Shown here one piece after another: positions 1,779 through 12,841 of a stretch of DNA of 12,841 nucleotides; positions within the stretch are counted from its first letter, which is position 1; each line of letters starts with the position of its first letter. The notes under the pieces were generated by a model. It searched no databases. It was given only the letters and a program-made list of their open reading frames with translations, and had not been told where the DNA came from. Source of the stretch: Candidatus Saccharimonadota bacterium. Lineage in GTDB: Bacteria > Patescibacteriota > Saccharimonadia > Saccharimonadales > Saccharimonadaceae. Where the stretch lies: contig JAUNQQ010000019.1 of the NCBI GenBank assembly GCA_030536095.1, positions 1 to 12,841 on the forward strand, given 5' to 3'. The position numbers and the translations under genes were made by a program.

Positions 1779-1785
1779 TGTTCTA

Positions 1786-1814
1786 ATTCTACCATATTTC
1801 TCCCCACTTTTCAA
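1786..1814 (-). promoter_or_regulatory. lepA promoter, leaderless type
   Basis: On the minus strand, TTGAAA (1814-1809) is followed by a 17-bp spacer and TAGAAT (1791-1786). A TGG immediately before the -10 makes it an extended -10 element. Only 7 nt separate the -10 from the lepA ATG, so transcription should begin at or within 1-2 nt of the start codon. Seen in sequence; the start site is inferred. Confidence 0.7.
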
Positions 1815-1829
1815 TTATTAACCCAGACA

Positions 1830-1955
1830 GAAAAATGATTTCTAGGGATGAAATTCGAGGAAACGACGAGGAACGAGGACGGGCTGGGCTTTATCGCCCT
1901 GCCCTCCGAGTACCGCAGTCGTTAACGAAGAAGTTCGCCCTAGAAATCATTTTTC
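1830..1955. other. 126-nt element closed by an 18-bp perfect inverted repeat (candidate structured RNA)
   Basis: Positions 1830-1847 are exactly complementary to 1938-1955 (arm core AATGATTTCTAGGG). The interior can also fold: 1854-1857 with 1926-1929, 1862-1867 with 1918-1923, and a GC-rich apical hairpin pairing 1881-1884 with 1901-1904 and 1886-1889 with 1896-1899 around a 6-nt loop. The whole would be a long rod. The right arm overlaps the last codons and stop of ruvB. The element ends 16 bp before the -35 of the lepA promoter. On the minus strand it would be transcribed as the ruvB 3' UTR. I see no convincing promoter on the plus strand. It could be a small RNA, a processing or stability element, a weak bidirectional terminator, or a MITE-like repeat. 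No target-site duplication is visible, and it does not match the SRP, tmRNA or RNase P motifs I know. Confidence 0.55.
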
Positions 1956-2953
1956 CTAAGATGATCTTCGGCTTTTTTTGTTACCCTCCTCCCCCTCGGC
2001 GTCCTCTCGAGCAATCCCAGCTGTAATAAATACGGCTCATAATAATCCTCAATCGTACTCGCCTCATCCCCCGTCAGCGCCGCAATCGTCGTCAGCCCCA
2101 CCGGTCTATCCTCATAATTCTGAAGCATCAGCCGGAGCATATTTCTATCCGCCGGGTCAAGTCCCAGCTCATCAATTTCCATTAAGTCAAGCGATTTTTG
2201 CGCCATTTCCGTATCAATAATCCCATCTCCATTCACATCCGCATAATCCCTTACTCGCCTCACTAACCTGTTCGCAATTCGCGGCGTCTTCCGACTTCTC
2301 TCTGCCAGTAGTCGAGTTGCACTATCTTCAATTTTAGTATCTAATATTCCCGCTGTTCGCTGAATAATCCGCTCAATTTCTGGTTCCTGGTAATATTCAA
2401 GCCGATGTAGCATTCCAAATCTATCTCGGAGCGGACCCGCCAGCGCCCCCGTCCTTGTTGTCGCCCCAATTACCGTAAATTTCGGCAAATCCAATCTCAC
2501 ATCTCTCGCCGCCGGCCCCTTTCCAATTACAATATCCAGCTTATAATCTTCCATCGCCGAGTACAAAACTTCCTCAACTGCTCGCCTAAGTCGGTGAATT
2601 TCATCTATAAACAAAACATCACCTTCTTGTAAGTTCGTCAATATCGACGCCAAATCCCCCGCCCGCTCAATTGCCGGCCCACTCGTAATCCTAAGATTCG
2701 CCCCCAGCTCGTGCGCTATTACATTCGCCATCGTCGTTTTTCCCAGTCCTGGCGGCCCATACAATAATATATGATCCAGAGTCGATCCATCTCCGCGCTT
2801 TTTTACTGCCGAAATCGCCAGTTCTAGATTTTTCTTCATTCGTTCCTGTCCAATATAATCCTGAAAACTCATCGGCCGCAGCGTTTTTTCAAGCTGCTCT
2901 TCCTCTCGATTTTCCTCCTCATGACTCGGCTCAACGATTCTCTGAATTCCCAT
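1940..2953 (-). CDS. ruvB: Holliday junction branch-migration ATPase RuvB
   Basis: Hexameric AAA+ motor that, with RuvA, drives branch migration of Holliday junctions for resolution by RuvC. At 337 residues it is full length for the family. Visible features are the N-terminal [11 protein letters not shown] segment (26-36), Walker [10 protein letters not shown] (66-74), Walker B with DEIH (117-120), sensor-1 GATTRTG (163-169) and the arginine-finger segment GPLRDRFG (173-180). The C-terminal winged helix ([10 protein letters not shown] ... TPRGR) is also present. ruvA and ruvC are not in this window. The start has no Shine-Dalgarno: a TATAAT lies exactly 6 nt upstream of the ATG, predicting a leaderless mRNA. 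The last four codons and the TAG stop lie inside the right arm of an inverted repeat. The promoter overlaps that of the divergent HD-hydrolase gene. Confidence 0.97.
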
Positions 2954-2959
2954 ATCTGT

Positions 2960-2988
2960 ATTATACTTTAGTTTGCTCTTCTTTGCAA
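2960..2988 (-). promoter_or_regulatory. ruvB promoter, leaderless type
   Basis: On the minus strand, TTGCAA (2988-2983), a 17-bp spacer and a perfect TATAAT (2965-2960) are followed by 6 nt and then the ruvB ATG. With ordinary -10 geometry the first transcribed base is the A of the ATG. It overlaps the divergent promoter at 2973-3001. Confidence 0.78.
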
Positions 2989-3001
2989 ATTATGATATAA
3001 T
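2973..3001 (+). promoter_or_regulatory. Promoter of the HD-hydrolase gene, overlapping the ruvB promoter
   Basis: TTGCTC (2973-2978), a 17-bp spacer and TATAAT (2996-3001), with a TGA forming an extended -10. The start site is expected near 3008, giving a leader of about 30 nt. That leader carries an AAGGAGGG Shine-Dalgarno (3026-3033) with good spacing to the ATG at 3038. The -35 regions of this and the ruvB promoter interleave on opposite strands, so two polymerases are unlikely to bind at once. Confidence 0.7.
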
Positions 3002-3037
3002 AATTATATTATTGTACCTTGATATAAGGAGGGAATT

Positions 3038-3757
3038 ATGGCTGATCGAAAAATTACCATTACTGAGGCTGAGCTTGATGTTAAAATCCGCAAGACCTAT
3101 ATTCGCGCTATAAACTTCGACGGCTCCCACCCGAACACTGCCGTCGCTCTCGGCTATGCTCTCGCGAGTCATGGCTCCGAACTGCGCGAAACTGGCGAAC
3201 CATATATTATTCATCCTCTGACTATGGCTTGTCGAGCCTTAGCGATCTATCTAAATGAAGACGAACTAATCGCTGCCATTTTACTCCATGATGTTGCCGA
3301 GGATAATAATAAGGCTATTACCGAACTTCCCGTTAACGACATTGTTCGTCGCGCTGTCGAATATCTCACCATTCGGCCTCGCCGCAACGAGTCAAAACTC
3401 GAGACAAAACGCCGTTATTTCGATATTCTTGGCAGTAGTATTACCGACCCCGAGCTTCACGGCATTCCGCTTTTAGTTAAGGGACTTGACCGGTTTGACA
3501 ATTTGCGCACAATGGGAAAGCTAAAATCCTCACCTGAGCGCCTGCGCAAAAATCTCTACGAAACTCAGTATTTTCTCCTGCCACTCCTTCACAAGGGGAA
3601 AAGTCTCTTACCACAATACTCAAACCAATTTCAGGAGATTACCGAAACTCTGACCGCATTGGTCGATTCTCAGGCTGATCTTCTCGGAATTGTATTTAGC
3701 GACGAGATTCCGAGTGATGATGAGCTCGCCAAAATTCTTGACTCAAAAAAGTCATAA
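3038..3757 (+). CDS. Stand-alone RelA/SpoT-type HD-domain phosphohydrolase (putative (p)ppGpp hydrolase)
   Basis: 239-residue protein with the HD fold of the hydrolase half of RelA/SpoT and of Mesh1-type small alarmone hydrolases. The family signature is clear: TGEPYIIHPL (52-61), LLHDVAED (82-89) and KGLDRFDNLRTM (148-159). This preserves the expected metal and substrate residues H59, H84, D85, E88, D89, D151 and N155. The synthetase (nucleotidyltransferase) and TGS domains of long RelA/SpoT proteins are absent. About 80 residues after residue 159 form an unassigned C-terminal extension. Hydrolysis of (p)ppGpp is inferred from the residues; another nucleotide substrate is possible. It is a single-gene unit, divergent from ruvB, with its own promoter, a strong Shine-Dalgarno and a terminator 10 nt after the stop. 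Third codon positions are rich in pyrimidines, as in the other plus-strand genes. Confidence 0.82.
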   Translation: MADRKITITEAELDVKIRKTYIRAINFDGSHPNTAVALGYALASHGSELRETGEPYIIHPLTMACRALAIYLNEDELIAAILLHDVAEDNNKAITELPVNDIVRRAVEYLTIRPRRNESKLETKRRYFDILGSSITDPELHGIPLLVKGLDRFDNLRTMGKLKSSPERLRKNLYETQYFLLPLLHKGKSLLPQYSNQFQEITETLTALVDSQADLLGIVFSDEIPSDDELAKILDSKKS

Positions 3758-3766
3758 CCTCCTCCC

Positions 3767-3791
3767 GAGCCGGCCCCGCCGGCTCATTTTT
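3767..3791 (+). terminator. Rho-independent terminator after the HD-hydrolase gene
   Basis: GAGCCGGC (3767-3774) pairs perfectly with GCCGGCTC (3778-3785) around a CCC loop, followed by ATTTTT. The 8-bp GC-rich stem plus T-tract sits 10 nt after the stop and separates this gene from the histidine-kinase unit. Confidence 0.88.
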
Positions 3792-3861
3792 CGTCAAAAT
3801 TTTAAGCTCAAAAAATGTCCAAAAATCTTTCGCATAAGCATTTTTCTTTTCGCCTCAGAAG

Positions 3862-3870
3862 TGCTACAAT
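3862..3870 (+). promoter_or_regulatory. Extended -10 promoter of the kinase-recO unit, leaderless type
   Basis: TGC followed by TACAAT (3865-3870) matches an extended -10. No good -35 is seen 17 bp upstream. The -10 ends 6 nt before the kinase ATG at 3877, the same spacing as for ruvB. A GGAGG (3871-3875) sits only 1 nt from the ATG and is too close to work as a Shine-Dalgarno. Confidence 0.6.
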
Positions 3871-3876
3871 GGAGGT

Positions 3877-4560
3877 ATGGAAAGCGAGGTAAACGGTATT
3901 TTGGTGGCAGCACACGAGCTAAAGGCTCCGCTAAATCTGCTTCGCCAACTCGCTTTTTCTCTTGATGAAGATCCAGATAATACCAAAAATATCCAATCCA
4001 AAATGATTCAGGTAACTGACCGCGCCATTCGCCAGGTAAATGACCTAACAAAAATCGCCCATCTCGATCGTGAGATTTTTGAGATTGAGCCAATCGCCGT
4101 CCGCTCCGTTTGTACGGATGTTTCTGATGAGCTTCGCCAGCTTTTTCGTTTTAATCATCGCTCTCTAAATCTCGACTACGCAAATCGCTCGCGCCTAGTT
4201 GTCGCAAATCGCGATTTATTATATAGTATCGTCTATAATTTCTGCCTAAATGCTATGCATTATTCCGAGCACGATTCCTTTGCTACGCTTTCGCTTCATG
4301 ACCGTCGCAGTTTTGTTCGTCTTTCCGTCCGAGATTTTGGCCCCACTCTCCCTAGCGACATTTGGCAATGTCTAAAAACCGGCTGGATAAAAAAGCCTGT
4401 TTCTATTTCAATGCGTCCCGGATCCTCCGGCCTCGGTCTCTATATTGCCTCTAAGTTCTCTCAATATATGAATTTAAATCTCGGCGCTATTCGTCATCGT
4501 GACGGCACGACCTTCTTTGTCGATTTACCAGTTTCACGCCAAAAGGTGCTTTTTATATGA
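3877..4560 (+). CDS. Minimal histidine kinase without a sensor domain
   Basis: 227-residue cytoplasmic protein consisting only of a HisKA-like dimerisation helix pair and a HATPase_c domain. The H-box AAHELKAPLN places the phospho-acceptor histidine at residue 13, almost at the N-terminus. The N-box is NFCLNAMHYS (121-130) with N121 and N125. G1 is reduced to DFGP (153-156), with the second glycine of the D-x-G-x-G motif replaced by T157. G2 is GSSGLGLYIAS (182-192). There is no transmembrane segment, PAS, GAF or HAMP region, so the signal must come from a partner protein. The ATG at 3877 is the only sensible start, and the H-box leaves no room for a later one. The stop overlaps the next gene by 4 bp (ATGA), which suggests translational coupling to its response regulator. 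The specific stimulus is unknown. Confidence 0.85.
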   Translation: MESEVNGILVAAHELKAPLNLLRQLAFSLDEDPDNTKNIQSKMIQVTDRAIRQVNDLTKIAHLDREIFEIEPIAVRSVCTDVSDELRQLFRFNHRSLNLDYANRSRLVVANRDLLYSIVYNFCLNAMHYSEHDSFATLSLHDRRSFVRLSVRDFGPTLPSDIWQCLKTGWIKKPVSISMRPGSSGLGLYIASKFSQYMNLNLGAIRHRDGTTFFVDLPVSRQKVLFI

Positions 4561-4898
4561 TTCATATTATCGATGATGACGTAATTATGTCGGAATGTAT
4601 TGCTAACTTTGTCAAGCCTCGTCCTGTTCACGCTTTTACTAACGCCATTGACGCCATCTCCGCTCTAAACGATGAAATTCCCGACTTAATTTTTCTTGAC
4701 ATTCTCCTTGACGGCCCAAATGGTTTTACCTATCTTAATGAAATAGCCTCCTATACTGAAACTAAAAAAATCCCCGTGGTTATTATTACTTCTATGCAGC
4801 TCCCCTCTAATCTCGGTCCATACGGTGTTGTAAAAATCCTCGACAAGTCCACTATGACCCCCGCCGATATCCGCGCTCTCGCGGAGGAGTATTCATGA
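4557..4898 (+). CDS. Receiver-only response regulator
   Basis: 113-residue single REC domain. It has the acidic triad start D6-D7-D8, the phospho-acceptor D48 in LIFLDILLDG, the switch T78 in VVIITS and a conserved lysine (K97 in ILDKSTM). There is no DNA-binding or enzymatic output domain, so it should signal by protein contact or act as a phosphorelay carrier. It is the likely partner of the kinase just upstream, with which it overlaps by ATGA. Its own TGA stop overlaps the ATG of a 12-codon reading frame leading into recO. The targets cannot be seen from the sequence. Confidence 0.88.
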   Translation: MIHIIDDDVIMSECIANFVKPRPVHAFTNAIDAISALNDEIPDLIFLDILLDGPNGFTYLNEIASYTETKKIPVVIITSMQLPSNLGPYGVVKILDKSTMTPADIRALAEEYS

Positions 4899-4933
4899 CT
4901 AAGCTAGCTCATAAAACAGAAAGGTATCCATGA
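4895..4933 (+). CDS. 12-residue mini-ORF bridging the response regulator and recO
   Basis: A short frame encodes MTKLAHKTERYP. Its ATG overlaps the response-regulator stop as ATGA (4895-4898), and its TGA overlaps the recO ATG as ATGA (4930-4933). A strong GGAGGAG (4883-4889) lies 5 nt before its ATG, stronger than the AAGG in front of recO. The arrangement fits a translational-coupling leader that hands ribosomes on to recO. No homologue is recognised. A chance frame is possible, since an open frame of this length is common. Confidence 0.45.
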   Translation: MTKLAHKTERYP

Positions 4934-5595
4934 GCGATTTAAAAACTCAGGCTCTCGTTTTTCATCGTACTAATATTGGCGAAGCCGATCGTCTCGTCGA
5001 TTTCGCCACTTCATCTGGAAAAATTTCTGCCCTTGCTCGTGGTGTTCGCCGCGAAAAATCTAAACTTGCCGGAGGAATTGAACCTTTTTGCCTTGTTGAA
5101 ATTCGTATTCATCACAGCGAAAAAACCAATCGTAATACCCTGACCGGCTCAAGATTACTCACCTTCTATCAGTCAATTCTCTCGGACTACGAGAAGCTCA
5201 CCCTTGCCTCTGATTTTCTCAAGAAATCTTATCGCGCCACGTTCCAGCTTCCCGACGCCAACTTTTTCAGTCTCCTCAACCAGTCATTTTCCGCTCTCAA
5301 TCAAAACATTTCGCCCGACCTTATCAAAATCTGGTTTAATCTAAACTTTTACCTTACAAAAGGGAACCAGCTCAATCTCTCCTTTGATTCAACCGGAGAA
5401 AAACTCTCGCCCGAAAACACCTATGCTTGGAACTCTACTACTGAATCGCTCGAACTCTCCTCTCATGGCGCTATCTCCGCTCCCGAAATAAAACTCTTAC
5501 GACTAATCACAACCAGCCCGCTCGCCCTCGTCGCAAAAGTCAAAAACATCAACACTTTTCTCCCCGCCATAAAATCCATCAGCGAAACGTTATAG
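4930..5595 (+). CDS. recO: DNA repair protein RecO, zinc-finger-less
   Basis: RecO helps RecR load RecA on SSB-coated single-stranded DNA and anneals complementary strands in RecFOR gap repair. The 221 residues begin with the OB-fold signature (KTQALVFHRTNIGEADRLVDFAT, then GKISALARGVRREKSKLAGGIEPF). A helical domain follows, then a C-terminal segment (LSFDSTGEKL ... LELSSHGAIS) where many RecO proteins carry a four-cysteine zinc site. Here those cysteines are absent; the only Cys in the protein is in EPFCLVE. The start has a modest AAGG (4921-4924) 5 nt upstream and overlaps the preceding mini-ORF stop. The TAG stop lies within a 6-bp tail-to-tail overlap with the minus-strand membrane-protein gene. 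recF and recR are not in the window. Confidence 0.85.
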   Translation: MSDLKTQALVFHRTNIGEADRLVDFATSSGKISALARGVRREKSKLAGGIEPFCLVEIRIHHSEKTNRNTLTGSRLLTFYQSILSDYEKLTLASDFLKKSYRATFQLPDANFFSLLNQSFSALNQNISPDLIKIWFNLNFYLTKGNQLNLSFDSTGEKLSPENTYAWNSTTESLELSSHGAISAPEIKLLRLITTSPLALVAKVKNINTFLPAIKSISETL

Positions 5596-6330
5596 ATTAA
5601 ATGTCACCGTTCCTAGCAGCGCATCATAATCCGCCCGAAAAGTCTCCGCATCCGTCTGTATTATCGCCGTCTTGTCTCGAATCTTCACAACCGTAAAAAT
5701 TCCCACTCTGTTCTCATCGATTCGCCCCTCGTATCTATTCGCCGTCTGTCCATTCACCTGCGTTGTTATTAGTGCTAATTCACCCTTCTGGACACGTTCC
5801 TGAAATTCTCCTACCACCGTATCATAGGTCTTATTTAGAATCGACACCCTTAACGCATATATCGGCTCAACCGCACTCACTCTCTCTGGATTTAGATATG
5901 CCTCAAAATCCTCCCCCGCCGCACCATCTTTTACTTCATATACGCTCCAAGTCTTGGGATAAGAAAAAGACAACGCCCCATAATCCACCGGCCCAGTAAA
6001 GGTATCATAGGGATTCTTTCGCTCCTCATCAAATTCCGCTTGTAATTTTTCTGTATTATCACTCACAGCTACCGCAACCTCTGCGTCCACTTTTGCCTCA
6101 AAATCCTTCGACAAATCCGACCACTGCCCCCAAATCCAAATAAACAACCCCACAAAAGTCACCGCCACCAGTGTAGAAATCACTAATCCAACGATAATCG
6201 GCAACGAGCCACCACTTGCCTTCACGGCACTATTGTAATCTCCCGAAATATTCTGATTTGCCTGATAAACCGGACTCTGTCCCGCCACAGTCTGCCCAAT
6301 ATTCGCCGAATTAAATTTTGAATTATCCAT
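5590..6330 (-). CDS. Single-pass membrane protein with an extracytoplasmic C-terminal domain, function unknown
   Basis: 246-residue protein that I do not recognise as a named family. Residues 1-42 are polar, rich in Asn, Gln and Ser, and probably disordered. Residues 43-67 form one hydrophobic transmembrane helix ending in WIWGQW. A charged, likely helical linker (about 70-105) follows. The C-terminal domain starts with GALSFSYPKTWSVYE (118-132) and ends VTFNL. The Y-P-x-x-W pattern resembles PsbP-like or other beta-rich surface domains often anchored in Gram-positive and Patescibacteria membranes. No signal-peptidase or lipobox site is seen, so an N-in/C-out anchor is inferred. The start is leaderless in type: TATAAT ends 6 nt before the ATG. 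Its stop codon is adjacent to the opposing recO stop, with no intergenic gap. Confidence 0.72.
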   Translation of the reverse strand: MDNSKFNSANIGQTVAGQSPVYQANQNISGDYNSAVKASGGSLPIIVGLVISTLVAVTFVGLFIWIWGQWSDLSKDFEAKVDAEVAVAVSDNTEKLQAEFDEERKNPYDTFTGPVDYGALSFSYPKTWSVYEVKDGAAGEDFEAYLNPERVSAVEPIYALRVSILNKTYDTVVGEFQERVQKGELALITTQVNGQTANRYEGRIDENRVGIFTVVKIRDKTAIIQTDAETFRADYDALLGTVTFNL

Positions 6331-6336
6331 AAGCCT

Positions 6337-6365
6337 ATTATAACGAAAATCTCATTTTCTTTCAA
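6337..6365 (-). promoter_or_regulatory. Promoter of the membrane-protein gene, leaderless type
   Basis: On the minus strand, TTGAAA (6365-6360), a 17-bp spacer and a perfect TATAAT (6342-6337), then 6 nt and the ATG at 6330. It lies in the 44-bp gap after adk, so this gene probably has its own transcript as well as any read-through. Confidence 0.78.
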
Positions 6366-6375
6366 CTAGATTTTC
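6345..6375. repeat. AT-rich 8-bp inverted repeat around the -35 region
   Basis: GAAAATCT (6345-6352) is the exact reverse complement of AGATTTTC (6368-6375), with a 15-nt spacer that contains the TTGAAA -35 box. One arm reaches into the adk stop codon. It may be an operator or a weak adk 3' hairpin. It lacks the GC stem and T-tract of a good terminator. Confidence 0.35.
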
Positions 6376-6992
6376 TACTCTCCGTAACTTTCCTCTCTTA
6401 GGTTCGAGTCGTTTTCGATTACATCCTTGCTCTCATTATCGAACACCGCCACCATATCTGGTTTTTTCTCCAAAACCACCGCCTCAATTCTCTCTGCTAC
6501 CTCTTCAACCGTCCCCACTCCATCAACTTCTGAAACACTAATTTCTCCCTCCTCTAAAATCGGCAATATCTCCCCAATATTACTTTCATAAATTTCCAGT
6601 CTCCGTTCGACCACTTCCGCCGTATCGTCATCTCGTCCCCGCTCCTCAATCCGCTTTATTAATTCCTCCTTTGGTACGTTCATTACAATCGCGAGTTCCA
6701 CTTCATCCAAAATCCGTTTTTCCTGAATCATTATCTCCGCCTGCTTCTTATCCCTCGGAAAACCATCCAAAATCACATCCATCCCCTCGTCATCTGCTCG
6801 CGCAATTTCCCGCTCCATTAAGTCAACTACGACCTTATCATCTACTAGCTCGCCATTTTTTAAAATCTCATCAAATTTCCCGGTCTCGCGCAAAACTTGC
6901 CCTACGCTCAGCCATTTCCAACCGTATTTGTCCGCAAGTAATCTCCCCTGTGAAGATTTTCCACTTCCAGCTGGGCCAAATAGAATAATCAT
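6375..6992 (-). CDS. adk: Adenylate kinase, short (lid-less) form with acidic tail
   Basis: Catalyses the reversible ATP + AMP to 2 ADP reaction in the cytoplasm. The P-loop is GPAGSGKS (6-13). The NMP-binding region reads LSVGQVLRETG (28-38), where the usual Thr-Gly-Asp is Val-Gly-Gln. DGFPRDKKQ (76-84) is the classic AMP-site signature. After RIEERGRDDD (114-123) the chain goes directly to VVERRLEIYE, so the roughly 30-residue LID insertion with its zinc site is absent and this is a short-type enzyme. Residues from about 165 to 205 form an acidic tail beyond the usual core end. A good GGAGG (7001-6997) precedes the ATG by 4 nt. It follows rpsU by 45 bp with no separate promoter seen, so the two are probably co-transcribed. 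Confidence 0.88.
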   Translation of the reverse strand: MIILFGPAGSGKSSQGRLLADKYGWKWLSVGQVLRETGKFDEILKNGELVDDKVVVDLMEREIARADDEGMDVILDGFPRDKKQAEIMIQEKRILDEVELAIVMNVPKEELIKRIEERGRDDDTAEVVERRLEIYESNIGEILPILEEGEISVSEVDGVGTVEEVAERIEAVVLEKKPDMVAVFDNESKDVIENDSNLREESYGE

Positions 6993-7011
6993 AAAACCTC
7001 CTTTTAATTAA

Positions 7012-7034
7012 AGATACTCGCCTCGCGAGTATCT
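7012..7034 (-). other. Perfect 10-bp hairpin between rpsU and adk
   Basis: AGATACTCGC (7012-7021) and GCGAGTATCT (7025-7034) pair perfectly around a 3-nt loop, starting 3 nt after the rpsU stop. On the minus strand it is followed by TTAATTAAAAGG, which is only a weak T-tract. Attenuation between rpsU and adk, or an mRNA processing or stabilising hairpin, is more likely than full termination. Confidence 0.6.
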
Positions 7035-7037
7035 GTT

Positions 7038-7256
7038 TTATCTTAGACCTAACTTAATCTTTTCCGTTTTCTCAGCTCGACGAATTTCCCTAATAATCGC
7101 CCTCTGTCTTCGCTCTCGCTTTGACATTGGCTTTGAAAACCGCATCTGCGACTTCGCTAGCGGAACCACGCCACTCTGTAAAACTTTCCGATTAAAGCGC
7201 CGAATAATATTTTCGTTCGCTTCTCCCTGGTCTTTTCTTGTAACTTTTACTGCCAT
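7038..7256 (-). CDS. rpsU: 30S ribosomal protein bS21
   Basis: 72-residue, highly basic small-subunit protein that sits near the anti-Shine-Dalgarno end of 16S rRNA. The family pattern is visible: ENIIRRFNRKVLQSGVV (15-31), followed by an arginine-rich helix (SKRERRQRAIIREIRRAEK, 45-63). The length is typical. It is first in a unit with adk downstream, and a perfect hairpin lies between the two. There is no Shine-Dalgarno: an extended -10 TATAAT ends 8 nt before the ATG, so the 5' leader is at most a couple of bases. This is notable for a protein that influences initiation. Confidence 0.9.
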   Translation of the reverse strand: MAVKVTRKDQGEANENIIRRFNRKVLQSGVVPLAKSQMRFSKPMSKRERRQRAIIREIRRAEKTEKIKLGLR

Positions 7257-7264
7257 ATACAGCC

Positions 7265-7293
7265 ATTATACCAGATGCCCCCCATAATTTCAA
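7265..7293 (-). promoter_or_regulatory. rpsU promoter, near-leaderless type
   Basis: On the minus strand, TTGAAA (7293-7288), a 17-bp spacer and a perfect TATAAT (7270-7265) preceded by TGG (extended -10). The ATG is 8 nt beyond the -10, so the leader is 0-2 nt. It occupies the 51-bp gap after the ileS stop, where no terminator is seen. Confidence 0.78.
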
Positions 7294-7307
7294 CCCTAAA
7301 ATCCGAT

Positions 7308-10300
7308 TTATTTGGCTTTTTCCAGACTAATCGTGATATTTTCCCCCGAAATCTTCGCAATCTCATCAAACTCATAATTCTGATTCTTTTCAATTTTCTC
7401 CGCCAGTGTTTCCGTCGCTATAATTTTCCGTTGATCTTCGTCTAATTCGCACGACAAGCTCAGATAAATTCTATCATCTACCTCTAGCCCAGCCTTCTTT
7501 CTTGCTGCCTGAACCAACCTTACTAGCTCTCTCGCGAACCCTTCTTTTCTCAGCTCTCCCGAAATCTCCTTATTTAGGAAATACTCTGCGTCGTTTGTTG
7601 TCTTTTTTACATTGACCTCGTCTCGGATCATCTCCTCATATTCTTCTGGTAATTTTTCGCCTGCATATCTAAATTCTGCCAACGGCTGCCGCACTTTTAT
7701 CAGTTCTCCATCCATCCGCATTCTCAGCCCCTCGGAGATAATTTCTCTTGTTCGCGCCATCTCGTCTAGAACATCCTGACTTATTTCGCCAGCTTCTGGC
7801 CAATCCAACAAATGAACACTATCTGTCGAATTGGTTAGTTTCTGATATAATTCCTCACTTAGAAACGGCGTAAACGGCGCCAAGATCTTTGACAAAAATA
7901 GCAAAACATAATACAGCGTCCGATAAGCCTCATCCTTATCTTCGTCATCCTCTGATTTCCAGAATCTTCGTCGACTTCTTCTAACAAACCAATTCGATAA
8001 ATCGTCCAAAAACGGCAAAATTTCAGAGGTTGCCCGCGGTAAGTTATACGCCTCCATTCCTTCCGTAATCTGATTTCTAACCTCATAAACTCTCGAGACA
8101 ATCCATTTATCCAAGACATTTTTTAGCTCTCCTAGTTCTGAAAATTCAAAATGGTCAATATTCGCATAAGTCGAGAAGAAATCGTAAGTATTCCAAATCA
8201 TCGCAAGTTTTCGATTTACATCTGAGACATCTTTATCTATCAGTGCAAAATCCTCTCCCGCGCACACCGGACTAGATAGAAGTAGAAGTCTTAGCGCATC
8301 TGCCGAATATTTATCCATTAGCTCATTCGGATCGGTATAATTCCCAAGCGATTTGGACATTTTTCGCCCGTCATTTCCCGCCAGTGTCCCTGTCGTAATA
8401 ACATTTTTATAAGCATTTTCTCCAAACAGCGCCGTATTTACCACATGTACATAATAAAACCACGCCCTGACCTGCCCCACATATTCCACGATAAAGTCTG
8501 CCGGAAAATTCTTTTCGAACTTCTCTTTATTCTCAAATGGATAATGCAATTGCGCAAACGGCATCGACCCACTCTCAAACCAACAATCAAGTACCTTGTC
8601 GACTCTCTTAAAATGCTCAATCTTCGCTGACATCGGCCCCCGCGGAATTTTCCCACCTTTCGCCAAAATCTTCTGCCAATCCTCGTAAATCTTTTTTGCG
8701 CCCTTATCACTCATCGGCGCCACAGATTTTTCCCCATTTGAACGCATTATTGCATATGCGTCAAACTCAATCTCATCCACCCACGGCCGATGATAGTCCT
8801 CCAACTCAGTTCCAGAATACTCTTTTAATTCTTCATACGACCCTATCACTAGCGTCGTCCCCTCGTCACTTTTCCAGACCGGCATTGCCGTCGCCCAAAA
8901 CCTATCCCGCGACAAATTCCAATCTGGCGCCTGTTCAATATTTTTTTCAAACCGCCCATGCTTTAAATATTCTGGGAACCAGTTTATCCCCTCATTTTTT
9001 TCAATCAAAATTTTCTTTGAACCCTGAATATCAAAGAACCAACTCGGGAACGCCCGATACATAATTCGCTGTTTTGATCTCGGATTAAACGGATATTCGT
9101 GTCTAATATATTCAATTTTCCAAACAATACCCTTTTCTTCTAGACACTTCGCGATAAATTTATTCCCCGCCCAACATTCAATCCCATTCTCATCCGTATC
9201 TTTTACTCCTAGCTCATATAACTTCTCTGCAACTTCAGGTAGATAGTATCCATTTTCATCTAAAACATCCTCAAATTCCGCCTCATCCTCATTCTCCAGA
9301 TACAGAGCATAATCGTCCTCACCATATGCCGGTGCAATATGCACAATTCCTGTTCCATCATCTTTGCCCACAAACTCCGCCGCATAAACTTTATGTGTCC
9401 CCCGCCCTAACAAATCCTCATAATGTATTCCGGCAAGTTCTTTTCCTTTTAAGGTTAAAAACGGCTCCTTTTTCTCTATTTTCAGCGTCTTAAAAACTTT
9501 CTCAGAAAGCGCCGTCGCAAAAACCAATACTTCCTCGCCAATCTCATAGAATCCATAATCCATCTCTGGATTTACGGCAAGCATTTTATTTGCTGGCAAT
9601 GTCCATGGCGTCGTCGTCCACGCCAAAAATGTCATCTTTATTCGCCGTTGCGGATTTTTTTCATCTAGACCAGCAATCCCACTCGTACTTCTAAAACCCA
9701 CATATGCACTCGGATCCGTCACCTCTTTATACGCATCATTATCCATCGTCACTTCCGCCTTCGATACCGGCGTACAGAACTTCGTATCATACATCAGGAC
9801 TTTTCGCCCCTCGTAAATTTTTCCTTTTTCATAAAGTGTCTTAAATGCCCACCAGACACTTTCCATAAAGTCCTTATCCATCGTCCGATAAGCATTTCGA
9901 AAATCTACCCACCTTCCAACTCTGTCAATCGTCCCCTCCCAAGTCTCTGAATTTGCCACCATCGACTCCCGACATTTCGTGATGTAATCCTCAAGCGTCC
10001 ACTTCGTCCCAATTTCTCGTCTATCCGTAATATTCAACTGTTTCTCTACGAAATTCTCGGCCGGCAACCCATGACAATCCCAACCCCACCTTCGCTCTAC
10101 TCGAAAACCATTCATTGTCCAAAATCTCGGCACTACATCCTTTAAGATTGAAGATAATAATGTTCCAAAATGCGGATCGCCAGTAATAAATGGTGGTCCA
10201 TCATAAAACACATAACTTCTTTTTGCGTCACGATTTTCTACTGACTCCTTAAAAACCTTGTTCTTTTTCCAGTATTCTATTAACGCTTTTTCATATTCGT

Positions 10301-10352
10301 TTGCCCGTCGCCGTTTTTCAAAAACCTTCCCGTTTTTTTTCTCTAAAACCAT
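7308..10352 (-). CDS. ileS: Isoleucyl-tRNA synthetase, type 2 (eukaryote-like)
   Basis: Charges tRNA-Ile and edits misactivated valine. At 1014 residues it is full length. The catalytic domain opens with DGPPFITGDPHFGTLL, so the HIGH motif is HFGT (61-64), with the last histidine replaced by Thr. WGWDCHGLPAEN (89-100) follows. The CP1 editing domain shows TTTPWTLPANK (246-256) and GTGIVHIAPAYGEDDYAL (333-350). SRDRFWATAMPVW (481-493), DCWFESGSMPFA (589-600) and intact KMSKS (664-668) complete the core. NYTDPNELMDKYSADALRLLLL after KMSKS, and LVQAARKKAGLEVDDRI near the C-terminus, point to the type-2 clade, which lacks the C-terminal zinc-finger of E. coli-type enzymes. Members of that clade are typically mupirocin-tolerant (known for the family, not tested here). 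A GGAG lies 4 nt before the ATG. No T-box is visible in the short leader. Confidence 0.97.
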   Translation of the reverse strand: MVLEKKNGKVFEKRRRANEYEKALIEYWKKNKVFKESVENRDAKRSYVFYDGPPFITGDPHFGTLLSSILKDVVPRFWTMNGFRVERRWGWDCHGLPAENFVEKQLNITDRREIGTKWTLEDYITKCRESMVANSETWEGTIDRVGRWVDFRNAYRTMDKDFMESVWWAFKTLYEKGKIYEGRKVLMYDTKFCTPVSKAEVTMDNDAYKEVTDPSAYVGFRSTSGIAGLDEKNPQRRIKMTFLAWTTTPWTLPANKMLAVNPEMDYGFYEIGEEVLVFATALSEKVFKTLKIEKKEPFLTLKGKELAGIHYEDLLGRGTHKVYAAEFVGKDDGTGIVHIAPAYGEDDYALYLENEDEAEFEDVLDENGYYLPEVAEKLYELGVKDTDENGIECWAGNKFIAKCLEEKGIVWKIEYIRHEYPFNPRSKQRIMYRAFPSWFFDIQGSKKILIEKNEGINWFPEYLKHGRFEKNIEQAPDWNLSRDRFWATAMPVWKSDEGTTLVIGSYEELKEYSGTELEDYHRPWVDEIEFDAYAIMRSNGEKSVAPMSDKGAKKIYEDWQKILAKGGKIPRGPMSAKIEHFKRVDKVLDCWFESGSMPFAQLHYPFENKEKFEKNFPADFIVEYVGQVRAWFYYVHVVNTALFGENAYKNVITTGTLAGNDGRKMSKSLGNYTDPNELMDKYSADALRLLLLSSPVCAGEDFALIDKDVSDVNRKLAMIWNTYDFFSTYANIDHFEFSELGELKNVLDKWIVSRVYEVRNQITEGMEAYNLPRATSEILPFLDDLSNWFVRRSRRRFWKSEDDEDKDEAYRTLYYVLLFLSKILAPFTPFLSEELYQKLTNSTDSVHLLDWPEAGEISQDVLDEMARTREIISEGLRMRMDGELIKVRQPLAEFRYAGEKLPEEYEEMIRDEVNVKKTTNDAEYFLNKEISGELRKEGFARELVRLVQAARKKAGLEVDDRIYLSLSCELDEDQRKIIATETLAEKIEKNQNYEFDEIAKISGENITISLEKAK

Positions 10353-10381
10353 AAAACTCCAATCTCCCCACTATACTATTC

Positions 10382-10410
10382 ATTATACTATAAATCCCCT
10401 ATTTTTTAAA
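10382..10410 (-). promoter_or_regulatory. Probable ileS promoter
   Basis: On the minus strand, TATAAT (10387-10382) with a weak TTTAAA 17 bp upstream (10410-10405). The expected start near 10375 gives a leader of about 23 nt containing GGAG before the ATG. It is too short for a T-box or riboswitch. Confidence 0.55.
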
Positions 10411-10453
10411 GAGTAAAAAGCTATATTTTTCCACTATTTTCATCATTCTGCAA

Positions 10454-10482
10454 CAATAAAAAGCCCAGTATATAACTGGGCT
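10454..10482 (-). terminator. Rho-independent terminator of pyrC
   Basis: Perfect 8-bp stem AGCCCAGT (10462-10469) / ACTGGGCT (10475-10482) with a 5-nt loop. On the minus strand it is followed by TTTTATTG. It lies 22 nt beyond the pyrC stop and isolates pyrC from ileS. Confidence 0.88.
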
Positions 10483-10504
10483 CTAAAATATTTCTAGAAG
10501 GATT

Positions 10505-11845
10505 TTATCGCTTGCGAAGTGACTCAAAAAATGCCTCACGGTCATCCGAACAGACCAGTCGCCCGCCAGAGAAGACATATTTGATTTTTCCGTAAAGTGT
10601 CTCGCCGATAAATGGCGAATTTGACGACTTAGACACAAAATCGCACACCGTCCACGGCTCATCTGGATTAAAAATCACTAAATCGGCCGGACTGCCTTGA
10701 TAAACTCGACCAGCATCTTGTAATCCATAGACCGTGGCAGGATTAAGGCTCATCCGCTCATACAGTTGCTGGATTGTCAAGTGCCCAGGATAAACAAGAT
10801 TGGTAATCCCGAGCGCCAAGGCCGTCTCGAGTCCAATAACGCCACTCGGTGCCTTGAGTAGTCCTAAATCTTTCTCTTCTATAGTATGCGGAGCGTGATC
10901 GGTAGCGATTAAATCAATCGTCCCATCTCGAAGTCCCGCAATAATCGCCTGACGGTCGGATTCCGTCCTAAGGGGCGGATTCATTTTGGCTAGCGCACCA
11001 TATCTGACCGTGTCTTCCTCTGTTAAACTAAAATGATGCGGTGTAGCTTCAGCATGAATATCTGCGCCGAGCCGCTTTCCCTCGCGGATGAATTCTATAC
11101 TTTCGGCTGCGCTGACATGCTGAATTACGACCCGTGCGCCAGTCTCAAGGGCCAGGCGAACATCTCGCTCTACGAGAGAAATTTCAGCCATCCGATCAGC
11201 TCCACCAATGTTAAAACATTTTGAAGCAAAACCGCGATTAAATCCCGGCGTCTTAACATAGGCCGGATCTTCCTCGTGAAAACTGATTGGCACACCAAGG
11301 CGATGTGCATTTTCCATTGCCTTACGCGCCAAATCTTCATTCATCAGCGGCTTACCATCATCCGTGAAACCAATCGCTCCGGCTTCGTGTAGCGCATCCA
11401 TGTCGGTTAGTTCTTCTCCGCGCATTCCTTTGGTGACGCTACCACACGCGTAAATATTTATCCCTGTTAGTCGACCTTTTTTTAGGCAATAGCGAAGAGT
11501 CTCGGGCGTATCAATCGGCGGCGTCGTATTTGCCATCATTACTACCGAAGTAAAACCGCCGTTTTTAGCGGCCATCGCGCCAGTGAGAATATCCTCCTTT
11601 CTGGTTTGTCCAGGATCGCGAAAATGAACATGAGTGTCGATCAGTCCAGGCATAACATAGCAGCCCGTAGCATCGATAATCTGAGCTGAATTATTTTCAC
11701 CAAAACGGCTCATCAATACAGAAGAATATTTACCGGGTAGTATTATATCTATAATTTTTCCGTCTGATATAATTAAATCCAGTCGTTGTGGCTCCATGTA
11801 TTTGTCGTTGACTACTAATCCGCCTATTATTGCAGAAATTGCCAT
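10505..11845 (-). CDS. pyrC: Dihydroorotase, class I
   Basis: Zinc amidohydrolase that cyclises N-carbamoyl-aspartate to dihydroorotate, the third step of pyrimidine synthesis. From the chosen start it has 446 residues, slightly longer than the usual 420-430. Metal and substrate motifs are complete: DTHVHFRDPGQ (70-80, H72 and H74), ANTTPPIDT (105-113), FTDDGKP (160-166), HEED (190-193), IQHVSAAES (241-249) and ATDHAPH (314-320, D316). The frame is open to an ATG at 11893, but that ATG overlaps the -10 box. The ATG at 11845 has an AAGGGAG 6 nt upstream and is the better start. It has its own promoter and terminator, and no other pyr gene is nearby. Third-base usage is much richer in pyrimidines than in the other minus-strand genes, a possible sign of transfer. 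An allantoinase-like role is less likely given the motifs. Confidence 0.92.
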   Translation of the reverse strand: MAISAIIGGLVVNDKYMEPQRLDLIISDGKIIDIILPGKYSSVLMSRFGENNSAQIIDATGCYVMPGLIDTHVHFRDPGQTRKEDILTGAMAAKNGGFTSVVMMANTTPPIDTPETLRYCLKKGRLTGINIYACGSVTKGMRGEELTDMDALHEAGAIGFTDDGKPLMNEDLARKAMENAHRLGVPISFHEEDPAYVKTPGFNRGFASKCFNIGGADRMAEISLVERDVRLALETGARVVIQHVSAAESIEFIREGKRLGADIHAEATPHHFSLTEEDTVRYGALAKMNPPLRTESDRQAIIAGLRDGTIDLIATDHAPHTIEEKDLGLLKAPSGVIGLETALALGITNLVYPGHLTIQQLYERMSLNPATVYGLQDAGRVYQGSPADLVIFNPDEPWTVCDFVSKSSNSPFIGETLYGKIKYVFSGGRLVCSDDREAFFESLRKR

Positions 11846-11892
11846 GACTAGCTCCCTTCTAGAATATGTCAAAGATCTCCCACGACTATTCA

Positions 11893-11921
11893 ATCATATC
11901 ACAAAAATACTAGTTCGTCAA
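11893..11921 (-). promoter_or_regulatory. pyrC promoter
   Basis: On the minus strand, TTGACG (11921-11916), a 17-bp spacer and TATGAT (11898-11893) with a TGA extended -10. The predicted start near 11886 leaves a leader of about 41 nt with a Shine-Dalgarno. This is a conventional leadered promoter, unlike most of its neighbours. No attenuator hairpin is obvious in the leader. Confidence 0.78.
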
Positions 11922-11948
11922 CCAATATAATCAATACAATATGACATA

Positions 11949-12593
11949 CTATTTCTGAATCTTTCTAGACGATTGCACCTTTGATGGCGGGCCCGCCTCT
12001 TTTCTCCTCATCTGATTCCTAAAATCATTAATTAGTTTTATTATATCGCCCTGTAATTTTGGTATTTCAGTCTCCGTACAATCTTGCCACCGAATCCATA
12101 TATCTAGTTTTTCAGCCAACCGAAAAGCAAACCTTCGATAAAATTGCGTTCTCCTATCATAGCCAATCTTATTGGCTAAAATTTCCTTTTGCCACTCATC
12201 CATAATTAACGGTTTAGTACTCTGTATTAAAAATTCTAGCAATGAGTAATTGTCGTCTTGTAATGTCGCTCGAAATAATACATGATACTTCCTGATAAAA
12301 GCTAGTATTTTTATAATATTCGTCTCTAGTCCATAACCTCTTTTAATCATCTCGACAAAATACGTGCCAACCTCATTCTCAAAATCTCGCTTCCAACGCA
12401 AATAAAAATCAGACATAGAAATATACTGATTATAAAATGCTCTCCTGCTAATATGTGATTTTCGGCAAAGTTTCGCAATGGAAATTGTCCCTAGCGGATG
12501 TTCGCCGCTTAACTCAAGCGCACTCTTTCTCAGCGCATGTTCACTTGGCCGATTAGCCATAAAGGGCGCCTGGATTTTCCGTTTTATGGGCAT
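11949..12593 (-). CDS. TetR-family transcriptional regulator
   Basis: 214-residue protein. Residues about 19-62 form a TetR-type helix-turn-helix: HALRKSALELSGEHPLGTISIAKLCRKSHISRRAFYNQYISMSDFY has the alternating pattern of TetR_N, with I-S-R-R-A-F-Y-N-Q-Y as recognition helix. The remainder is an all-helical, aromatic-rich ligand or dimerisation domain with no recognisable ligand signature. The C-terminal 20 residues are basic (MRRKEAGPPSK ... RKIQK). The ATG at 12593 lies 6 nt after a TATAAT, so the message is probably leaderless. A second in-frame ATG at 12560 has no Shine-Dalgarno. Regulators of this kind often control a divergent gene, here the frame beginning at 12715, or the adjacent pyrC. 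No terminator separates it from the pyrC promoter. Confidence 0.75.
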   Translation of the reverse strand: MPIKRKIQAPFMANRPSEHALRKSALELSGEHPLGTISIAKLCRKSHISRRAFYNQYISMSDFYLRWKRDFENEVGTYFVEMIKRGYGLETNIIKILAFIRKYHVLFRATLQDDNYSLLEFLIQSTKPLIMDEWQKEILANKIGYDRRTQFYRRFAFRLAEKLDIWIRWQDCTETEIPKLQGDIIKLINDFRNQMRRKEAGPPSKVQSSRKIQK

Positions 12594-12599
12594 ATAATT

Positions 12600-12627
12600 A
12601 TTATACTATTTATGTTTCATCTTGCAA
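12600..12627 (-). promoter_or_regulatory. tetR-type regulator promoter, leaderless type
   Basis: On the minus strand, TTGCAA (12627-12622), a 16-bp spacer and TATAAT (12605-12600), then 6 nt to the ATG at 12593. The same geometry is seen at ruvB. Confidence 0.7.
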
Positions 12628-12641
12628 CGTTTCACCCAGCT

Positions 12642-12655
12642 TATTGAAGGCAATA
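12642..12655. promoter_or_regulatory. Small dyad between divergent promoters, possible operator
   Basis: TATTG (12642-12646) and CAATA (12651-12655) form an inverted repeat with a 4-bp centre, located between the regulator promoter and the divergent promoter. The position suits a TetR operator. The half-sites are short and AT-rich, so chance is a real alternative. Confidence 0.25.
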
Positions 12656-12679
12656 TCACCTCTAAAACAGTTATGATTA

Positions 12680-12707
12680 TTGGCATTTTATTACTTTGGA
12701 CTATAAT
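12680..12707 (+). promoter_or_regulatory. Divergent promoter toward the right edge
   Basis: TTGGCA (12680-12685), a 16-bp spacer and a perfect TATAAT (12702-12707). Seven nt later an ATG begins an open frame that runs to the window edge. The geometry matches the leaderless promoters elsewhere in the window. Confidence 0.6.
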
Positions 12708-12714
12708 AGATACT

Positions 12715-12841
12715 ATGGTTGGTCACAGAAATAATCAAAGCAGGCTATTTTTAAGGAAGCTACAACGACCCGTTCATAGGTCTTTTATTATGATGTATGA
12801 CGTAATGCCCGCCAGCTCGATAAAAATCTCACAACTCTGTA
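12715..12841 (+). CDS. 5' start of an unidentified open reading frame, cut by window edge
   Basis: From the ATG at 12715 the frame stays open for 42 codons to the edge. It begins MVGHRNNQSRLFLRKL and continues with a basic stretch and PVHRSFIMMYDV. No family is recognised from this fragment, and there is no membrane segment or signal peptide. It is supported mainly by the near-consensus promoter 7 nt upstream and by its position divergent from a TetR-type regulator. There is no Shine-Dalgarno. Codon use is not informative at this length, and a chance frame remains possible. Confidence 0.4.
   Translation, partial: MVGHRNNQSRLFLRKLQRPVHRSFIMMYDVMPASSIKISQLC

Follow-up and report, generated by a model that had tools for sequence, protein, structure and literature searches.

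The 12,841-nucleotide stretch analysed here, which we call the window, is contig C2 of an 84-contig genome of 752,288 bases that is 96.8% complete. It carries genes with Pfam backing for lepA, ruvB, an HD-domain gene, a histidine kinase, a response regulator, recO, adk and rpsU, as well as ileS and, at the position read as pyrC, an amidohydrolase by Pfam. A membrane-protein gene, a TetR-like gene and an open frame at the right edge matched no Pfam family, the last two being searched at E 1e-3. The window IleS finds its best matches in Candidatus Saccharibacteria genomes (70% identity to locus L001), with ruminant-gut isolates (goat, roe deer, sheep, yak) making up 14 of the 21 top IleS loci. 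Judged by these matches, the source is a Saccharibacterium, a member of the Patescibacteria, and its closest named relatives in the search are mostly ruminant-gut genomes. Here, we describe -10 promoter boxes that stand at a short, fixed distance before the start codon. Our reading, to which we give a probability of roughly 0.88, is that in about a fifth of the genes the promoter would be fused to the start codon and that the mRNAs would begin at the ATG without a leader.

Promoter boxes at the start codons of the window

An initial, sequence-only reading of the window had listed seven start codons lying 6-8 nt after a -10 box and having no usable Shine-Dalgarno sequence, six of them with a -35-like hexamer 16-17 bp further upstream that is exactly TTGAAA in three. 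The upstream sequences bear out all boxes and gaps, the hexamers and the lack of usable Shine-Dalgarno sequences. They also agree with the Shine-Dalgarno starts which that reading had assigned to the HD hydrolase, adk, recO, ileS and pyrC, weakly so for recO (AAGG); the words are GGAG in ileS and GGGAG in pyrC, and those of the HD-domain gene and adk are listed with the promoter boxes:

1786..1791, minus strand: -10 box TAGAAT of lepA, extended (TGG before the box), 7 nt before the ATG at 1778
1809..1814, minus strand: -35 box TTGAAA of lepA, 17-bp spacer
2960..2965, minus strand: -10 box TATAAT of ruvB, 6 nt before the ATG at 2953
2983..2988, minus strand: -35 box TTGCAA of ruvB, 17-bp spacer
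3026..3033, plus strand: Shine-Dalgarno sequence AAGGAGGG of the HD-domain gene, for contrast
3862..3870, plus strand: extended -10 box TGCTACAAT of the histidine-kinase gene, 6 nt before the ATG at 3877
6337..6342, minus strand: -10 box TATAAT of the membrane-protein gene, 6 nt before the ATG at 6330
6360..6365, minus strand: -35 box TTGAAA of the membrane-protein gene, whole promoter returned by the genome pattern search
6997..7003, minus strand: Shine-Dalgarno sequence AAGGAGG of adk, for contrast
7265..7270, minus strand: -10 box TATAAT of rpsU, extended (TGG before the box), 8 nt before the ATG at 7256
7288..7293, minus strand: -35 box TTGAAA of rpsU, whole promoter returned by the genome pattern search
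12600..12605, minus strand: -10 box TATAAT of the TetR-like gene, 6 nt before the ATG at 12593
12622..12627, minus strand: -35 box TTGCAA of the TetR-like gene, 16-bp spacer
12680..12685, plus strand: -35-like box TTGGCA of the right-edge frame (doubtful gene), 16-bp spacer
12702..12707, plus strand: -10 box TATAAT of the right-edge frame (doubtful gene, running off the end of the window), 7 nt before the ATG at 12715

The histidine kinase has TACAAT as its -10 box, extended by TGC and without a clear -35 box; the GGAGGT inside its 6-nt spacer lies too near the ATG for Shine-Dalgarno function. The right-edge frame is doubtful as a gene: it counts 42 codons to the end of the window, and its TATAAT also falls inside a longer open frame that starts at 12622. 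With a -10 box defined as TA...T with at least five of six matches, 7 of the 13 window starts have one at a gap of 6-8 nt. When the 60 nt upstream of the starts were dinucleotide-shuffled 2000 times, such starts averaged 0.41 per shuffle, numbered at most 4 and never reached seven.

Spacing and anatomy of the module in the source genome

The sequence-only reading had predicted a sharp genome-wide peak in the distance from TATAAT to ATG, and such a peak appears at 6 and then 7 nt. The genome-wide figures combine whole-genome pattern counts with sampled stretches that amount to about half of the 752-kb genome, and the gap histograms run from an exact TATAAT to an ATG opening at least 60 codons, over gaps 0-28. 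The sample own_B (20 contigs, 155,368 bases), taken by number from the remaining contigs without regard to hits, has 20 cases at gap 6, 5 at gap 7 and 0-3 at each other gap. The sample own_A (20 contigs, 208,900 bases), in which 9 of the 20 contigs had been picked for promoter-pattern hits, has 33, 11 and 0-8, respectively, and the sister genome G109 (160,508 bases) has 34 at gap 6, 9 at gap 7 and 0-5 elsewhere. Over the whole source genome, TATAAT-N6-ATG occurs 115 times vs 16 times for TATAAT-N15-ATG, TG-N-TATAAT-N6-ATG 87 times vs 0 for the reversed pattern, and the full TTGAAA..TATAAT..ATG motif 11 times vs once reversed. A 50-kb Escherichia coli control, too small to carry weight, had a -10 box at gap 6-8 in 0 of 43 open reading frames (ORFs). 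Chance in an AT-rich genome could be proposed, as TATAAT is frequent, with 354 and 266 sites in the two samples counted, but the count of the same motif at another gap and the window shuffles speak against it; the explanation is already refuted by the gap histograms, and we regard its probability as negligible.

The observed promoter-like sequence is more than a hexamer at a fixed distance. Counts of motif anatomy, like those of gene share, relaxed-box peak, context, Shine-Dalgarno profile and orthologue concordance, cover ORFs of at least 100 codons only. The profile of 89 gap-6 starts from the source genome and G109 reads T at -17, R at -16, T at -15, G at -14, any base, TATAAT, a loose 6-nt spacer with T or C as its last base, and ATG. 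A TTG of a -35 box stands at spacers of 16-17 bp in 24 of these 89 sites, vs 0-4 at each other spacer in the range 8-29. Within the source genome, the TGn extension is found at 45/59 gap-6 boxes vs 9/60 at even gaps of 12-24 (p = 8e-12), and a pyrimidine directly precedes the ATG in 56/59 gap-6 starts vs 79/184 first ATGs of other genes (p = 7e-14); 19 further starts lie at gap 7. The preference concerns ATG: among 295 ORFs, ATG follows a -10 box at gap 6/7 in 78 (control 16.4), GTG in 10 (5.5) and TTG in 4 (5.8). Codons 2-5 of the predicted leaderless genes were also checked for a preference for A, and showed none (0.43 vs 0.41). Bacterial RNA polymerases begin transcription some seven bases past the -10 box and favour a purine at +1 preceded by a pyrimidine at -1. 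Since the gap of 6 and the pyrimidine/purine rule both point there, +1 is predicted at the A of the ATG.

The module can thus be written as a weak TTG -35 box, a 16/17-bp spacer, TRTGnTATAAT, 6 nt and ATG. We propose that RNA polymerase with the housekeeping sigma factor would recognise the extended -10 box and start at the A of the ATG, which would therefore yield an mRNA without a leader, and that the ribosome would start on the 5'-terminal AUG instead of a Shine-Dalgarno sequence, as leaderless mRNAs elsewhere suggest. We infer both the start site at the ATG and a 70S or IF2-dependent initiation.

How many genes would use this module was estimated with a position weight matrix (PWM) that was trained on 30 G109 sites and then applied to the source genome. 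It scores at gap 6/7 in 69/295 ORFs vs a control mean of 9.4 (maximum 15), and in own_B in 25/107 vs 2.6 (maximum 7), which puts predicted leaderless-type starts at about 20% of the genes above background. They are commoner where the upstream neighbour is divergent and the gene would hence head a transcription unit: 31/84 divergent heads vs 9/76 close same-strand followers (p = 0.0002), and in own_B 12/28 vs 3/31 (p = 0.006). Among 45 genes with TGn, a -10 box of at least 5/6 matches and gap 6, ten were hand-picked for a Pfam scan, and they span metabolism, DNA, wall and tRNA charging: enolase, tRNA-synt_2b, NAD-dependent DNA ligase, tRNA-synt_1b, a ParA-like ATPase, glycerol-3-phosphate dehydrogenase, a glycosyltransferase, a phosphomannomutase-like protein, a Mur ligase and tRNA-synt_2d. 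The remark in the sequence-only reading that leaderless use falls on core translation and recombination genes holds as a description of the window only. The start codons of the enolase, tRNA-synt_1b, ParA-like, glycosyltransferase and Mur ligase genes are supported, because a Pfam domain starts there no later than residue eight.

The remaining genes would be opened by a Shine-Dalgarno sequence or a stop-start overlap. Shine-Dalgarno cores peak at gaps 4-6 in the source genome (51-52 of 294 genes vs 11-31 at gaps 12-39), and this positional peak beside that of TATAAT upholds the earlier claim of two initiation modes in one genome. A search for an intact anti-Shine-Dalgarno sequence found no 16S rRNA in the incomplete assembly; TGGATCACCTCC is present in 6 of 30 same-genus genomes, and four of these loci, inspected by eye, look unlike 16S tails. 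At 4557-4560 of the window, an ATGA joins the response-regulator start to the overlapping histidine-kinase stop, as in translational coupling.

Conservation among relatives and competing explanations

The comparison with related genomes suggested by the sequence-only reading shows conservation of the exact gap in ruvB orthologues, and two other genera of the family have the peak as well. In 21 same-genus genomes (own included), the -10 gap of ruvB is exactly 6 in 16, 7 in one, 9 in two and 10 in one, with none of these in one, while the 33 nt upstream of the box have a mean ungapped identity of 0.32. Of 30 ruvB loci, four partial or paralogous ones (L177-L180) were dropped, as were five of the remaining 26 whose alignment begins after residue 2 (L159, L166, L172, L173, L176); on visual inspection, the gap is 8 in L172, and L159 carries a Shine-Dalgarno sequence. 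These data bear on the explanation that the mRNAs are ordinary leadered ones, with TATAAT as a secondary promoter or simply as unstructured, AT-rich sequence, the true start further upstream, and translation by way of low structure or bS1. Many bacterial genes lack a Shine-Dalgarno sequence, and 19 of 20 same-genus genomes encode a bS1-like protein, which matches TIGR00717 over roughly its initial 348 of 516 positions and in no case exceeds the curated cut-off. However, an unstructured stretch needs no TGnTATAAT at one exact distance, and the peak is 1-2 nt wide; the -35 box at 16-17 bp and the ruvB gap, kept without other conservation, also argue against ordinary leaders, which we consider improbable.

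For rpsU the evidence points elsewhere. Its relatives have a -10 box at 7-10 nt in 12 of 13, those 12 with a TTG at exactly 17 bp (L029 lacks such a box), and a Shine-Dalgarno sequence in none of the 13 counted. Of 18 hits, 17 were shown, and four (L031, L041, L143, L145) were left out because they align from residue 3; by eye, these have a -10-like box 8-9 nt before the ATG. In the window, where the gap is 8, a T precedes an A two nucleotides upstream of the ATG. The claim of leaderless starts beside Shine-Dalgarno starts is thus supported by the gap peak, the extended -10 box, the pyrimidine/purine context and the ruvB gap, but not for rpsU, which probably has a 2-nt leader, 2-4 nt fitting better than none. 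More generally, transcription might start 1-4 nt upstream of the ATG and give near-leaderless mRNAs with very short leaders, at least at gaps 7-10 (lepA, rpsU). In the family member G009, an A stands before the ATG in 7/11 gap-7 starts; these may have a one-base leader, and the preferred gap may drift between genera. As the main class has exactly gap 6 (59 starts vs 19 at gap 7) and a pyrimidine before the ATG, we hold short leaders to be the less likely account, though a real contender.

The mode of one gene can also differ. Among 27 adk relatives, a -10 box at 6-10 nt without a Shine-Dalgarno sequence is present in 5, a Shine-Dalgarno sequence without such a box in 19, neither in 3 and both in 0 (30 hits, 28 shown; L029 left out, as it has no ATG at the position), and the initiation mode of adk therefore differs among relatives.

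Beyond the genus, exact-motif counts vary widely. Among 145 Patescibacteria, TATAAT-N5-8-ATG vs its reverse numbers 184 vs 25 in the source genome, 207 vs 43 in G109, 76 vs 34 in G009 and 76 vs 67 in the family member G123. Among 192 Patescibacteria, TG-N-TATAAT-N6-ATG reaches 100 in G109 and 86 in the second sister G211 beside the 87 of the source genome (reversed 0-1 in these three), followed by 36 in G330 and 32 in G218, with at most 24 in the remaining 187. In 23 counted genomes, from 24 loci hand-picked out of 80 IleS loci plus E. coli, the same pattern occurs 47-111 times in seven close Saccharibacteria relatives, 6, 8 and 26 times in three other Saccharibacteria, 4 times (reversed 3) in one Parcubacterium and 0-7 times in twelve non-Patescibacteria. 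Order-wide, in 148 genomes, the six of the genus have 99-124 TATAAT-N6-ATG vs 8-26 at N15; counts are also high in some other genera of the family (g136, 77-83 vs 11-17 at N15), and none of the 120 genomes outside the family exceeds 50. With exact TATAAT, G009 has 3 at gap 6, 7 at gap 7 and 0-2 at other gaps, and G123 shows no peak (3, 1 and 0-3). With a relaxed -10 box G123 does peak at gap 6 (16/123 ORFs), which means that a count of the exact motif reflects both how perfect the motif is and how often it is used. The idea that the genus is an outlier of its phylum in the number of leaderless genes was rejected, since G009 and G123 peak too with the relaxed box. At gap 6/7, that simple box is found in 78/295 ORFs of the source genome (control 16.4), 38/137 of G109 (6.0), 21/120 of G009 (2.4) and 24/123 of G123 (5.2), and the habit is therefore common to the sampled family members.

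We lean, on balance, towards a wider view, held with less confidence than the fused promoter itself. In this family of host-associated Saccharibacteria, TRTGnTATAAT-N6-ATG would be a standard fused module and a leading way to open transcription units, used by some 15-23% of genes above background (four genomes) and about a third of divergent heads (source genome). It would have a near-perfect consensus in the genus, beyond other sampled Patescibacteria, while genes such as adk would switch mode in evolution.

Several observations weigh against promoters fused to the start codon. TG precedes the -10 box in 3 of the 7 window cases (lepA, kinase, rpsU), and the window is in this respect poorer than the genome. 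Leaderless state is not significantly concordant between reciprocal-best orthologues: of 12 pairs with G109, both are leaderless in 4, only the source gene in 1, only the other in 3 and neither in 4 (p = 0.25), and the pairs are few in G009 (20, p = 0.28) and G123 (8, p = 1) as well. Heads and followers do not differ significantly in G109, which also trained the PWM (11/34 vs 10/47, p = 0.31), and same-strand genes separated by over 60 nt from the gene ahead of them (8/71) are no richer than the close followers, though some should head units. The choice of own_A contigs by hits has to be added, as has the limit of independent start-codon support to five of the ten scanned genes. The actinobacterium Mycobacterium tuberculosis is said to have an extensive leaderless transcriptome with experimentally mapped start sites, the work of Cortes in 2013; the Saccharibacterium starts differ in being inferred from sequence.

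Other features of the window lie between its genes. The ruvB/lepA interval holds a long, near-perfect hairpin (1830-1955; minimum free energy -68.6 kcal/mol, z -8.8), for which an Rfam search gave no match. It is a dispersed repeat with 27 matching stretches in the genome (counting the copy in the window and its mirror match), some of them arranged in series on contigs C44 and C16, and has one weak match only among 19 other same-genus genomes. It looks like a palindromic element of the repetitive extragenic palindrome or miniature inverted-repeat transposable element type, nearly confined to the source genome. Between rpsU and adk, a 10-bp hairpin at 7012-7034 with a U/A-rich stretch after it (z -3.7 for 6990-7040) may act as terminator or attenuator, with a near-leaderless gene on one side and a Shine-Dalgarno-led gene on the other. 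Two contig samples of one assembly differ in GC content, 43.5% (L081-L100) vs 36.6% (L101-L120), and mobile or foreign contigs may be mixed into that assembly.

Known leaderless systems and meaning for Saccharibacteria

Genes marked by a -10 box some 10-12 nt upstream of their start and transcribed without a leader are already known in many bacteria, and the Saccharibacteria case is an addition to them. In Deinococcus-Thermus, a -10 box adjacent to the ORF acts as promoter of a leaderless mRNA, as tested by mutation; on average about 30% of ORFs have such a box, and a well-placed -35 box helps (PMC12340547). The Saccharibacterium resembles this system in the -10 box beside the start codon and its coexistence with a ribosome-binding motif, but belongs to another phylum and is dominated by the extended -10 box (TGn), whose promoter role is predicted from sequence. 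That study also scanned the bacterial domain (Fig. S7), and the accessible part of its text has no match for the word Patescibacteria (PMC12340547). In the TA-led genes of an earlier survey, TANNNT precedes the start by about 12 bp, a leader can be missing from operon-proximal genes while distal ones usually need a Shine-Dalgarno sequence, and a TG peak precedes the box in some low-GC genomes, e.g., Lactococcus (Zheng et al., 2011; PMC3160421). The Saccharibacterium starts resemble these in -10 position and in the TG before the box; the survey covers RefSeq genomes of 2010, and its main text, as far as available, has no match for TM7 or Candidatus. GeneMarkS-2 predicts a leaderless transcription class (Lomsadze, 2018, as described in the StartLink paper, PMC9581028), and the available text of the latter has no match for Patescibacteria or Saccharibacteria, nor that of Nakagawa (2017; PMC5397173) for Saccharibacteria or TM7. 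Leaderless translation is touched on in a remark that YchF promotes it (PMC12641178), and in the accessible parts of two further articles the word leaderless appears only in a reference title (PMC6851277; PMC7441243). Literature searches on leaderless genes in Saccharibacteria, Patescibacteria or the candidate phyla radiation, and on transcription start sites in Saccharibacteria, found no description for the lineage among the articles they listed, in line with the remark in the sequence-only reading that it was aware of no detailed one, while such starts are well known in actinobacteria and Deinococcus.

Cultivated Saccharibacteria grow on actinobacterial hosts, and expression cassettes with tuf and rpsJ promoter regions have been made for them; the available main text of that work has no match for "ribosome binding", "start codon" or "untranslated" (PMC10633639). 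If promoters are fused to start codons as we propose, Saccharibacteria cassettes without a ribosome-binding leader could be tried, and many promoters would be readable from the genome directly, at the start codons. Should leaderless starts prove common, gene callers geared to Shine-Dalgarno sequences may misplace starts in Saccharibacteria, and Patescibacteria form a very large, mostly uncultured share of bacterial diversity. Orthologues that switch mode, such as adk, would offer a natural experiment on the evolution of initiation modes.

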